A DNA stretch of 64,000 nt from Sphaerisporangium siamense. Lineage in GTDB: Bacteria > Actinomycetota > Actinomycetes > Streptosporangiales > Streptosporangiaceae. Below, piece after piece: positions 56,026 through 60,866 of this stretch. The notes under the pieces were generated by a model. It was not told the origin of the DNA, searched no databases, and saw only the letters and a program-made list of their open reading frames with translations. Made by a program: the position numbers and the translations under genes. Where the stretch lies: positions 2,976,001 to 3,040,000 of the forward strand of contig NZ_JACHND010000001.1 in NCBI RefSeq assembly GCF_014205275.1, in the 5' to 3' direction. How positions within the stretch are numbered: the first letter of the stretch is position 1; every line of letters begins with the position of its first letter.

Positions 56026-56670
56026 TCAATCGCCGATGACGACGCTCTCGCCCGGCTTCAGGCGGCGGAAGTCGCCGCCCTGGGCCTGCGCGCTCCGGTC
56101 GAGCAGCCCGTCCACCAGCGACAACCCCACGTCGTTGTACAGGCCGTCGTGGATGGAGAACGCCCGCGTGGGGTTCACGGCCTTGAGGTAGTCGAGCATC
56201 TCGGCGGCCTTCATCCACGGCCCGCCGGTCGGGGTGAGCAGCGTGCCCACCGGGCTCCCCGGGACGGTGAAGGCGTCGCCGGGGTGGAAGACCTCGCCGT
56301 CGATGAGGAAGCCGATGTTCTGCACCGGGGGCATCTCGGGCCAGATCTTGGCGTGCTCCTGACCGGCCACGCCCACCTCGAACCCCGCCGCGGTGAACGC
56401 GTCGCCCTCGCCGACGACGTTGACCTTCGCGCTCAGCCCCTCCAGTTGCGCCGCGACCGCCGCGCACGTCCAGATCTGGACACCGGAGGCGAGCGCGGCG
56501 AGGCGCTTGACCTCCAGGTGATCGAAGTGCTCGTGAGTGATCAGCACGGCGTCGGCGCCCTCGACGGCCGACTCCTCGGTGAGACCGCCGGGGTCGATCA
56601 CCAAGGTCGAGCCGTCCTTCCGCAGGCGCACGCACGCGTGTCCGTGCTTGGTGAGTGTGATGGGATTCAT
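56026..56670 (-). CDS. UlaG-like metallo-beta-lactamase-fold hydrolase
   Basis: A 214-residue MBL-fold protein. LTKHGHACVRLRKDG starts it, TLVIDPGGLTEES follows, and the metal site is VLITHEHFDHLEVKRL, with VFHPGDAFTVPG and AFSIHDGLYNDVG supplying further ligands. It belongs with UlaG-like hydrolases; the substrate is unknown. The ATG at 56670 overlaps the exporter stop by ATGA, so it is translated with the peptide exporter. This coupling is the only hint at a role. Confidence 0.88.
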   Translation of the reverse strand: MNPITLTKHGHACVRLRKDGSTLVIDPGGLTEESAVEGADAVLITHEHFDHLEVKRLAALASGVQIWTCAAVAAQLEGLSAKVNVVGEGDAFTAAGFEVGVAGQEHAKIWPEMPPVQNIGFLIDGEVFHPGDAFTVPGSPVGTLLTPTGGPWMKAAEMLDYLKAVNPTRAFSIHDGLYNDVGLSLVDGLLDRSAQAQGGDFRRLKPGESVVIGD

Positions 56671-58844
56671 GTTCCCATCATGACCCCCGGCGCCGTCCGG
56701 CCGCCGACCAGCGTGGCGTACTCGCCGCCGAGGGCCAGCAACTCCGCGTGGCCGCCCTGCTCGACGATCCGCCCGTCGCGCAGGACGAGGATCAGGTCGG
56801 CGTCCCTGACGGTGCTCAGCCGGTGCGCGACCACGATCCTCGTCTGGCGAAGCCCGGACAGGCGCGCCTCGATGGCGGCCTCGGTGGCGGTGTCCAGGTG
56901 GCTCGTGGCCTCGTCCAGGACGAGCAGGCGCGGCTCCGACAGAAGGGCCCTGGCCAGCGCGATCCGCTGCCGCTGGCCGCCGGACAGGCCGTGCCCCTCC
57001 GGCAGCGGCGTGTCATAGCCGAGCGGCATGCGGGCGATCTCGTCGTGGACGCAGGCCAGCCGGGCGGCGGCGACCACCTGTTCCAGCGGCGCGTCCGGGT
57101 CGCCGAGGGCGATGTTGTCCCTGATCGTGCCGGAGAACAGCGCGGGCTCCTGGGTGACGACGCCGAACCGGCGGCGCAGCGCGGGCGTCCACGCGGCGGG
57201 CGGGGCCACGCCGTCGTAGCGCACCTCGCCCTCCTCGGGCGCGTACAGCCCGAGCATGATCCGCGCCAGCGTGCTCTTGCCGGAGCCCGAGCGTCCGACC
57301 AGCGCGATCTTCTGGCCGGGCCGGGCCAGCAGCGACACCTCGCGCACGGTCCACGCCCCGCGCGGGTCGTACCGGAAGCCGACCCCGCGCAGCTCGACGG
57401 CGCCCTGAAGCTCGGGCAGGCGCGGCTCGTCCGCGGCGCCCGGCTCGGGGCCGGTGTCCAGGATGTCGGCGAGCCTGCGAACCGCCGCGCCGGCGACCTG
57501 CATGCGCTGCACGGCGCTCATCAGGGAGTTCAGCGGCGTGATCGCGGCCAGGGCGACGGCGTTCAGGGCGAGCAGCGTGCCGAGCGTCATGTCGTGGCCG
57601 AGCACGCGCCAGGCGCCGGCCCACAGCAGGACCATGGGCGTCATCACGTGGAGCGAGGTCTGCGCGGCCACCACGCCGCCGACGGCCCGCGTGCCGCGCG
57701 CGGCGGCGTCGAGCTGGGCCTCGAACAGCGCCGCCCACCGGTCGATCACCCGGCGCTCGGCGCTCATCGCCTTCAGCGACTCCACGCCCCGGATGGACTC
57801 GATCAGCCGTCCCTGGGCCTCCGCCTGGGCGGCGAGCTGCCGCTGGGCCAGCGCGGCGGTGCGCCGCCGCGTGCCGAACAGCAGCAGGGCGTGCGCGGCG
57901 ACGATGCCGAGCAGGCAGAGGCCGAGCACACGGTCCCCGGCCATGACGAGGGCGATGTAGACGACGGCGAGCGGGCCGTCCAGCATCGCGGGCAGCACCT
58001 GGCCGGTGGCCAGCTCCCTGATCGCGGTGACGCCCTCGGCCCTGGCGACCAGGTCGCCGGTGCCGCGCAGGGCGAAGAACCGGTACGGCAGCGCGAACAG
58101 GTGACGCACGGTCTCGGTGGTGAGGCGGCGGTCGACGCGCGTCTGGAGCGCCGCGAGCACGCGCACGCGCGCGAGGCCCAGCGCGAGCTGGGCGCCCGCG
58201 GCCACCGCCACGCCGGCGCCGATCAACGGCAGCGGGTCCGCCGAACCGGACGGCAGCACCCGGTCGACGATCAGGCCGGAGCCGAGCGGCAGCACCAGGC
58301 CGAGCGCCTGGAGCAGCACCGAGGCGAGCACGACCAGCGCGACCAGGCCGCGTGAGCGGCGCAGCGCGTCCAGGAGCATGCGCCGCCGCCAGGGCCGTAC
58401 GGGAAGGTCGATCCGTCCCGGACGGAAGCCGGGGCCGGGCGTGGGGACGATGACGACGCCGGTGAAGCCCGCGGCGAACTCCTCGCGGGTGAGCCGCAGA
58501 CGGCCCCGGGCCGGGTCGGCGACCTCCACGCCCCGGCGCCCGTGGCGCTCGACGACCACGAAGTGGCCGGACCTCCAGTGCGCGATGGCGGGCAGGGCCA
58601 CCCGGCCGAGTCCGTCCGGCGCGATCCGCATGGCGACCGGCGCGAGGCCGTACTCGCGGGCGGCGGCCACCAGCGCGCGTGCGGTGGTCCCGTCGCGGGA
58701 CGGGCCGATCCTGCCGCCGACCTCCCGGAGCGTCGTGCGCAGCCCGTGGTGGCGCAGGACCATCGTCAGGCAGGCGGCCCCGCAGTCCGTCATGGTGTTC
58801 TGCCGCACCACCGGGACGCGGCGGCGCCGGGCCCGTCCGGACAC
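56667..58844 (-). CDS. Peptidase-containing ABC exporter with C39 domain
   Basis: A 725-residue exporter with three parts. The N-terminal C39 peptidase has the catalytic Cys in NTMTDCGAACLTMVLRHHG, the His in GHFVVVERHG and the Asp in EVADPARGRL. A membrane part of about six helices follows (LVALVVLASVLLQALGLVL). The ATPase has Walker A VGRSGSGKSTLA, signature LSGGQRQRIALARAL and Walker B LLVLDEATSHLD. Such exporters cut the leader after a GG pair and export the peptide. The GTG at 58844 has GAGGAAG before it. The 42-residue GG peptide just upstream is the expected substrate. Confidence 0.93.
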   Translation of the reverse strand: MSGRARRRRVPVVRQNTMTDCGAACLTMVLRHHGLRTTLREVGGRIGPSRDGTTARALVAAAREYGLAPVAMRIAPDGLGRVALPAIAHWRSGHFVVVERHGRRGVEVADPARGRLRLTREEFAAGFTGVVIVPTPGPGFRPGRIDLPVRPWRRRMLLDALRRSRGLVALVVLASVLLQALGLVLPLGSGLIVDRVLPSGSADPLPLIGAGVAVAAGAQLALGLARVRVLAALQTRVDRRLTTETVRHLFALPYRFFALRGTGDLVARAEGVTAIRELATGQVLPAMLDGPLAVVYIALVMAGDRVLGLCLLGIVAAHALLLFGTRRRTAALAQRQLAAQAEAQGRLIESIRGVESLKAMSAERRVIDRWAALFEAQLDAAARGTRAVGGVVAAQTSLHVMTPMVLLWAGAWRVLGHDMTLGTLLALNAVALAAITPLNSLMSAVQRMQVAGAAVRRLADILDTGPEPGAADEPRLPELQGAVELRGVGFRYDPRGAWTVREVSLLARPGQKIALVGRSGSGKSTLARIMLGLYAPEEGEVRYDGVAPPAAWTPALRRRFGVVTQEPALFSGTIRDNIALGDPDAPLEQVVAAARLACVHDEIARMPLGYDTPLPEGHGLSGGQRQRIALARALLSEPRLLVLDEATSHLDTATEAAIEARLSGLRQTRIVVAHRLSTVRDADLILVLRDGRIVEQGGHAELLALGGEYATLVGGRTAPGVMMGT

Positions 58845-58876
58845 CCGTCTTCCTCTTCCTGGGTCTTGGCGATGGG

Positions 58877-58910
58877 CGGGCCCGGGGCGGGTACCCCCGT
58901 CCCGGGCCCG
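58877..58910 (-). terminator. Strong hairpin between precursor and exporter genes
   Basis: Two 15-nt arms pair with a single G-T: CGGGCCCGGGGCGGG (58877-58891) and CCCGTCCCGGGCCCG (58896-58910), loop TACC. Placed between the small gene and the exporter, it could be a leaky terminator giving more precursor than exporter. Confidence 0.7.
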
Positions 58911-58955
58911 TTCGTGAACGGATCGGCGGCCCGCCGGGCGTGGCGGGCGGCCGTC

Positions 58956-59084
58956 TCAGACGGAGACGCAGATGCCCGGCGGGTCGATGTAGAGGCCCAT
59001 CGAGACCTCCACCTTCTGACCTCCGCTGAGCTGCTCCAGCTCCTCGTCGCCGAGCACCTGCCCGGTCGTCTCGTTCTGGTCCAC
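58956..59084 (-). CDS. Double-glycine leader peptide, putative exported RiPP/bacteriocin-like precursor
   Basis: A 42-residue peptide with the leader DQNETTGQVLGDEELEQLSGG, which ends in a GG pair after the LGDEELEQLS pattern typical of C39 exporter substrates. The core of 20 residues starts QKVEVSMGLY, contains IDPPG and ends GICVSV with a single Cys. The GTG at 59084 is chosen because AAAGGAGG lies 7 nt upstream; an in-frame GTG at 59090 is too close to that site. It is too short for normal gene finding. It lies just before the C39 exporter on the same strand. No modifying enzyme is nearby, so the product may be unmodified. Confidence 0.75.
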   Translation of the reverse strand: MDQNETTGQVLGDEELEQLSGGQKVEVSMGLYIDPPGICVSV

Positions 59085-59273
59085 GCTCACCCCTCCTTTC
59101 GTCGATCTTTCACGGGCCGCCGGATCGCCCGGCGGCGTTCCCGGGGGTCGGCCCGGTGATCCAAGGAATATGGGGCCGCTCTTGGAATCGGCTTGGACAG
59201 GACTGAACAGGACGGGACGGCTCCCGCGGCGGCGCGTCACCCGTTCGCCCGGCAGTCCCTAAGCTTGCGGCTT

Positions 59274-60377: not shown

Positions 60378-60866
60378 ATGCGCAGCGGTCTTCGCGTCCT
60401 GCTCGGCCTCACCACCGCCGCGGCCCTCGGCCTCGGCCTGCCCGCCGCGGCGTCGGCCTCTGTATCGGCTCCTGTATCGGGCTCTGTATCGGGCTCGGTG
60501 TCGGCCTCCGGTGCCGCGGTGAGCTCGGCCGCCGAGAGGTGGGAATGGGGGCCCACCGCGTCCACGGACTTCAAGGGCTGGGCGTCGGGCGAGATCCGGA
60601 CGACGCGGTCCGGCCTGCGGATCAGCGGCGACGTGTACGACGCCGGGGGCGCCCGCACGTGCACCTGGCTGAAGATCAAGTGGCTGACCGACCGCGGCAA
60701 GTGGCGCACCGCGACGTACAAGAACTGCTCGCAGTCCAGGACGCGGTCCTTCCGGATCAACGCCGGGTACATGCTGACGTCCTCCGCCAAGGTGTGCCGG
60801 GGCACCTCGACCCGCGTCACCGGCAAGTGCTCGCACTGGGAGGGCGTGTGGTCCCAGGGCGGCTGA
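60378..60866 (+). CDS. Small secreted protein
   Basis: A 162-residue protein with a Sec signal: RSGLRVLLGLTTAAALGLGL followed by AAASASV, cleavable near residue 27. A low-complexity SVSAPVSGSVSGSVSASG segment comes from short tandem DNA repeats (TGTATCGG units, about 60470-60510). The mature part has four Cys (ARTCTWLKIKWL, TYKNCSQSRT, AKVCRGTS, TGKCSHWEG), which suggests two disulfides. No family is named. It is a single gene followed by a terminator. Confidence 0.8.
   Translation: MRSGLRVLLGLTTAAALGLGLPAAASASVSAPVSGSVSGSVSASGAAVSSAAERWEWGPTASTDFKGWASGEIRTTRSGLRISGDVYDAGGARTCTWLKIKWLTDRGKWRTATYKNCSQSRTRSFRINAGYMLTSSAKVCRGTSTRVTGKCSHWEGVWSQGG

Follow-up and report, generated by a model that had tools for sequence, protein, structure and literature searches.

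A 42-codon precursor gene adjoins a C39 exporter

The stretch of DNA analyzed here (the window, 64,000 nt from the genome of Sphaerisporangium siamense) carries on its minus strand a precursor peptide gene of 42 codons and a stop codon at positions 58956 to 59084. The gene starts with GTG, and a ribosome-binding site, AAAGGAGG (59092 to 59099, minus strand), ends 7 nt upstream of the start codon. A ribosome site had been noted in an earlier interpretation made from the sequence alone (the sequence-only reading). The minus-strand frame (59084 to 58956) is translated as VDQNETTGQVLGDEELEQLSGG, a leader of 22 residues (59019 to 59084), followed by QKVEVSMGLYIDPPGICVSV, a core of 20 residues (58959 to 59018), and the stop codon. 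The translation bore out the earlier description of these two parts: the leader ends in LEQLSGG, a double-glycine site for C39 peptidases, and the core contains one Cys. The GC content at the three codon positions of the frame is coding-like (0.70/0.35/0.93), and that of its upstream in-frame extension is 0.69/0.71/0.67. A single frame with the pattern of the precursor was found in the 64-kb window, and 40 first-order resamples of the window yielded no such frame. The sequence-only reading had made its proposal depend on conservation of the small frame beside exporter homologues, and homologous precursors were found to adjoin homologous exporters in three other genomes. A chance frame was rejected because of this conservation and because the resamples lacked the pattern. 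The ribosome-binding site is kept in all four genomes, and a block at the precursor gene, AAAGGAGGGGTGA, shows no differences among them. The 42-codon gene is real, and a few related species have conserved it. A simple gene caller of our own, rather than annotation, supplied the small frames and the gene limits.

The precursor gene lies directly upstream of a peptidase-containing exporter gene, as had been claimed. The exporter gene (56667 to 58844, minus strand) starts after 111 bp and encodes a peptidase-containing ABC transporter of 725 amino acids, in which Pfam detected an N-terminal C39 peptidase domain (Peptidase_C39; E value, 4.8e-33) and the ABC membrane (ABC_membrane) and ATPase (ABC_tran) domains. 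The best NCBIfam match was TIGR03796, but its score was below the cut-off (565 versus 853 bits). Cys21, His94, and Asp110, presumably the C39 catalytic residues, are invariant among the five exporters aligned, three of which are from loci of the window type. The 111-bp gap between the two genes (58845 to 58955, minus strand) could form strong RNA hairpins. The predicted fold of positions 58845 to 58958 has an energy of -65.4 kcal/mol and a z score of -3.4, and the z scores in the relatives are -3.3 (G007, part of the gap), -1.9 (G006), and -2.0 (G003). These hairpins are a possible attenuator that might set the ratio of peptide to exporter.

A gene for a metallo-beta-lactamase-fold hydrolase (56026 to 56670, minus strand) overlaps the exporter stop codon by 4 bp. 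This gene was rejected as a member of the system and counted as a mere neighbor, since it is present in all 11 genomes of the genus studied, 7 of which have no peptide-exporter pair. A Pfam scan of 28 proteins, encoded between ∼29 kb and the end of ligA (63.3 kb) and covering the small frames in part, agreed with the statement that there is no lanthipeptide synthetase, radical SAM enzyme, or cyclodehydratase nearby. Similarly, tblastn queries with one group 21-type ATP-grasp protein and one TIGR04500 protein gave no match in the 64-kb window at E values up to 1e-12. One other frame in this region (60378 to 60866), between a methionine-synthase-like gene and ligA, encodes a secreted-looking protein with several Cys residues and no Pfam match; it is shared by all three other loci that have the peptide-exporter pair and by three of the six that lack the pair.

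Homologous cores belong to graspetide clusters

The pair of peptide and exporter genes is present in 4 of the 11 Sphaerisporangium genomes, namely, the window genome (G000), G007, G006, and G003. Relative to the window, the precursor proteins of the last three are 98%, 83%, and 68% identical, and the exporters are 96%, 81%, and 78% identical (100% for G000 itself). A profile built from five precursors was then used to search 341 genomes of the family Streptosporangiaceae at E values up to 0.05, and matches were found in at least 50 of them, with at most the best 21 candidates per genome scored. At least 17 of the family genomes contain a DPPG-type core: the four of the window type and 13 others. 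In all 13 of the latter, an ATP-grasp protein and a PpiC-type partner protein of the TIGR04500 family are encoded beside the core, compared to none of the four window-type loci. An exporter was present within the fetched stretch in 11 of these 13 grasp-linked loci; in the remaining two genomes, it was ∼12 kb away (G015) or on another contig (G108). The ATP-grasp protein of G015 had its best match to TIGR04187, the graspetide synthetase family (E value, 1.1e-68; 232 bits, below the cut-off of 350), and its partner protein matched TIGR04500 above the cut-off. Beside the 17 DPPG-type genomes, weaker matches (E values above 1e-4) were found in 33 further genomes. Of eight loci with weak matches that were fetched (seven from these 33 genomes, plus a second G003 locus), seven were grasp-linked with other cores, and one (L079) contained nothing recognizable. 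In a class-wide sample, matches were found in at least 12 of 394 genomes, all of them Streptosporangiaceae, with at most the best 17 candidates per genome scored.

The best reading of these data is that the window peptide is homologous to the precursors in rosaritide-type (group 21-like) graspetide clusters without being a graspetide precursor itself. This family of homologous cores had not been recognized in the sequence-only reading. The rosaritide cluster, mirA to mirD, is from Micromonospora rosaria; its synthetase modified the precursor only when the TIGR04500 partner was present, and the links join Ser8, Ser9, and Thr11 to Asp22, Asp24, and Asp26 (PMC13097080). TIGR04500 proteins are also listed among the families associated with ATP-grasp loci in a second report (PMC8939145). 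The window resembles the rosaritide cluster in having a double-glycine leader precursor beside a peptidase-containing ABC exporter (best match, TIGR03796, the family named for MirD), and TIGR04187-like and TIGR04500 proteins, which represent the families named for MirB and MirC, accompany the relatives of the window precursor in their clusters. In contrast to the rosaritide cluster, the window locus has no synthetase and no partner, and its core lacks the Ser/Thr and Asp pattern. The assignment of the 13 relatives to group 21 is one of gene content. A profile for putative ATP-grasp target peptides, TIGR04497, weakly matched three of the four grasp-linked DPPG precursors scanned (E values of 3.5e-4, 0.0049, and 0.021, all below the cut-off), compared to no match for the window peptide at E values up to 1.

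Enzymes and presumed linkage residues are both missing from the window type

Comparison of the four window-type cores with 24 grasp-linked cores from 13 loci showed which parts are shared and which are not. First, L-x-x-L-S-G-G is kept in all four window-type precursors, and G-[LI]-Y-I-D-P-P-G-I-C is kept in all four cores. Second, the two types share the Cys of DPPG-x-C, which is found in all four window-type cores and in 23 of the 24 that are grasp-linked. Third, a Thr or Ser precedes the D/N/S of the PPG motif by 3 or 5 residues in 24 of 24 grasp-linked cores versus 0 of 4 of the window type, and the same frequencies (24 of 24 versus 0 of 4) apply to an acidic residue at +3 from the Cys position. 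The window core has neither the Thr nor the terminal Asp of its grasp-linked relatives. Finally, a leader motif of the R-T-E-L type, by the pattern used, was found in 20 of 24 grasp-linked precursors versus 0 of 4 of the window type. A good example is the closest grasp-linked core, QRVEVSMGTYIDPPGVCCAD of G108, which has T where the window core has L and D where it has V at these two positions, along with four other differences. Judging from this comparison, the probable linkage residues are the Thr preceding the motif and the acid 3 residues after the Cys position. The shared losses of the four window-type cores may represent one event, because these cores are related. The enzymes are missing as well: no ATP-grasp or TIGR04500 protein was found by tblastn (E values up to 1e-12) at the 19-kb loci of G003, G006, and G007, and searches of the entire G000, G006, and G007 genomes gave no TIGR04500 protein. 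The fourth pair genome, G003, has a synthetase together with TIGR04500 at two loci elsewhere, where the precursors are different.

These data are best explained, with a probability of roughly 0.6, by a minimal secretion module, kin to graspetide precursors, which produces a leader-cleaved, exported, uncross-linked 20-mer that probably acts outside the cell. The double-glycine leader of the 42-residue precursor would be recognized by the exporter, the C39 domain of which would cut after Gly22, and the 20-residue core would leave the cell without ATP-grasp cross-links. The single Cys of the exported core would be free or would pair two molecules. The peptide is probably secreted unmodified because both the enzymes for knotting it and the residues to be joined are missing. 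Once outside, the core would probably act as a signal or competition factor through its conserved Y-I-D-P-P-G-I-C part. Double-glycine peptides that are exported unmodified by C39 transporters are known, for example, class II bacteriocins and pheromones. The window peptide is like them in having a double-glycine leader, an adjoining C39 exporter, and no modifying enzyme recognized beside it among the proteins scanned, whereas it differs in being actinobacterial, short, and related to graspetide precursors. Among the 20 genes called between 44 and 64 kb of the window, none for immunity, a sensor, or a response regulator was specific to the pair loci. In titles and first lines, the literature searched made no mention of this peptide or of group 21 relatives that lack a synthetase.

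Exporter phylogeny and the direction of change

Two routes could lead to such a module. The enzymes may have been lost from a graspetide cluster, or an unmodified peptide and its exporter may be ancestral, with the synthetase and partner gained later. The mechanism proposed above is compatible with either. In a tree of 30 exporters, the four of the window type form one clade (support, 100/100) inside a clade of 23 (100/100), and the other 19 members are all from loci with a synthetase and partner. These loci were reached through precursor matches, and the tree carried a long-branch warning among the outgroups. Two loci from a further set of 80 were used as outgroups, and 77 of that set were left out of the analysis. 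The best tree of 26 exporters speaks for the ancestral state, in that it places the window lineage outside the grasp-linked exporters, with its four exporters branching near the base. However, the branch that puts the 19 grasp-linked exporters on their own side is weakly supported (84/74), and two placements of the window lineage nested among them were not rejected (AU test P values of 0.16 and 0.28). A clade restricted to the window-type and DPPG-cluster exporters was rejected (AU test P value of 1.3e-7). The peptide core and the exporter may therefore have separate histories.

A wider sample of exporters in the family points in the other direction. The best three candidates per genome were considered; among the matches listed, at least 105 in number, 40 loci were chosen for fetching. 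At 27 of these loci, a TIGR04500 homologue accompanies a synthetase of nearly full length; 2 have only a synthetase fragment, and 11 have none of these, which means that 13 of the 40 loci sampled have an exporter with no full synthetase beside it. One of the 11, L296, is insecurely labeled because the locus is near a contig end. In a quick exporter tree (SH-aLRT support only), several of the synthetase-free loci are nested among the grasp-linked ones, as expected from losses, with seven changes of state when fragment-only L320 is labeled as grasp-linked. Furthermore, apart from the residues presumed to form the linkage, the window core is similar to a grasp-linked one. Enzyme loss is the favored direction of change, and an ancestral absence appears unlikely, although of the alternatives considered here it survives best. 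The two fragment loci, L312 (5698 to 5925) and L320 (5677 to 5928), each contain a synthetase fragment of ∼80 residues beside an open exporter frame, and these are signs of decaying clusters.

Conservation of the pair within the genus

Reduction could also have gone further, leaving the peptide-exporter pair as a decaying remnant with no present function. The pair is absent from 7 of the 11 genus genomes. Its site is between the metallo-hydrolase gene and the methionine-synthase-like gene, and both neighbors are present in six of the seven genomes without the pair, with another gene in between in G004; in the remaining one, G008, a contig end lies beside the hydrolase gene. A remnant of the exporter, a 44-residue C terminus that is 61% identical, was found in G005 (L144, 8747 to 8869) upstream of the metallo-hydrolase gene at the pair site, and exporters with neither synthetase nor recognizable precursor occur in other genera. 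Against decay, both frames are open in all four pair genomes, which have preserved the ribosome-binding site, the double-glycine site, and DPPG-x-C in the core, and none of the three window-type exporters aligned has lost the C39 residues. The precursor coding region is also more similar than either flank in all four comparisons made. Identities in the coding region, in the 200 bp preceding it, and in the 112 bp following it were 97%, 95%, and 69% for G000 and G007; 80%, 58%, and 55% for G000 and G006; 76%, 55%, and 61% for G000 and G003; and 77%, 69%, and 54% for G006 and G003, respectively. The dN/dS ratios of the precursor were 0.29 to 0.84 for six pairs with few sites, only moderately below 1, and selection on the precursor is therefore suggested mainly by the kept motifs. 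A functionless remnant appears improbable.

Candidate modifying enzymes elsewhere in the genome

The sequence-only reading had left three options, an unmodified bacteriocin, a signaling peptide, or a modified peptide whose enzyme is encoded elsewhere. In one form of the third, the window peptide would be a graspetide precursor after all, modified in trans by a distant ATP-grasp enzyme. A search of the window genome with TIGR04187 gave three places. The first is an unbroken TIGR04187-like gene at 3826002 to 3826877 of contig C1 (L092, 7988 to 8968) with no clear precursor beside it. Counterparts exist in all three other pair genomes and in three of the seven without the pair, for a total of 7 of 11 genus genomes, and this co-occurrence (4 of 4 versus 3 of 7) is not significant. 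D-W-R was found in none of the seven proteins of this group (the gene and its six genus counterparts), compared to all 13 synthetases from the DPPG loci, and the rosaritide report describes a "DFR" motif as critical for synthetase activity (PMC13097080). The 3826-kb protein thus appears to be an ATP-grasp protein akin to graspetide synthetases but lacking D-W-R, and this, along with the lack of TIGR04500, weakens it as the modifier. A small frame near the gene (L092, 9098 to 9253), similar in four other genomes, was not taken as a precursor; it overlaps the next gene.

The second place, at 3148.5 to 3149.2 kb (L091, 7339 to 9477), is an ATP-grasp gene split between two overlapping frames and located between its own precursor and a methyltransferase gene. 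Both of these score above their cut-offs, the precursor against TIGR04186 (51 bits; cut-off, 25) and the methyltransferase against TIGR04188 (443 bits; cut-off, 380). L091 is another graspetide locus of the window genome, and the frame split may reflect a sequencing error or a pseudogene. The third match (3248775 to 3249281) is weak (38 bits) and LysX/RimK-like by eye. Modification in trans is considered unlikely because the unbroken gene lacks D-W-R, the split gene has its own precursor, and the third match is weak and LysX/RimK-like. It is least unlikely in G003, with its two synthetase and TIGR04500 sets. In addition, the window-type core of Sphaerisporangium album (taken to be G006), QVAVQGGLYIDPPGICVGF, contains no Ser, Thr, or Lys that could serve as a donor. 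On balance, a graspetide made in trans is about as improbable as a remnant, if not slightly more so. Of the three earlier options, the one with a distant modifier is weakened, since TIGR04500 was not found, the unbroken synthetase-like gene lacks D-W-R, and the other gene has its own precursor, and an unmodified peptide is favored.

The least probable alternative is modification of the core, for example, at the Cys or Asp-Pro, by a near or distant enzyme of an unrecognized kind: DPPG-x-C is the best-kept part of the core, and the overlapping metallo-hydrolase gene could be cotranscribed, but this gene is present regardless of the pair, and only the peptide and exporter are specific to the pair loci among the 20 genes called (44 to 64 kb), being found in 3 of 3 other pair loci versus 0 of 6 loci without the pair.

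Implications and a second synthetase-free pair

Beyond the unmodified secretion proposed for the window peptide, a broader reading, offered tentatively, is that rosaritide-type clusters repeatedly lose the synthetase and partner yet export an uncross-linked peptide, with the core motif rather than the ring under selection. If true, the window type (DPPG-x-C) and an NYDWMNYDW type in other genera would represent two independent cases. It would also predict that the link in the grasp-linked DPPG peptides joins the acid 3 residues after the Cys position to the Thr ahead of the motif, because these residues are missing in the enzyme-free window type. This is a predicted ring linkage for an uncharacterized graspetide subgroup. 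The window type and its relatives amount to a natural experiment on the purpose of graspetide cross-links, in which close relatives with and without the enzymes show a consistent difference at two core positions. Genome mining keyed to the synthetase would overlook such secreted relatives.

The second type consists of double-glycine leader peptides at three of the synthetase-free loci in the exporter sample, L329 (8357 to 8542), L331 (8257 to 8427), and L332 (6026 to 6223 and 6310 to 6549). Their cores end in NYDW(M/A)NYDWRDAVI(E/S/D)ALP, and the adjoining exporter is 52% to 53% identical to that of the window. Such NYDW(M/A)NYDW peptides were seen in only three genomes. As proof of the same route of loss, these pairs are weaker evidence because 11 of 11 searched genomes of the two NYDW genera keep, elsewhere, a TIGR04500 homologue without the N-terminal part; no synthetase was found beside this truncated homologue in the four loci fetched. 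Separately, complete clusters of synthetase, TIGR04500 protein, and exporter were observed in four Sphaerisporangium genomes (L140, L141, L142, and L143), with cores such as MHVSWYIGGRPAEWVGSNG, and one precursor of this type reached 31.5 bits against TIGR04497 (cut-off, 32).
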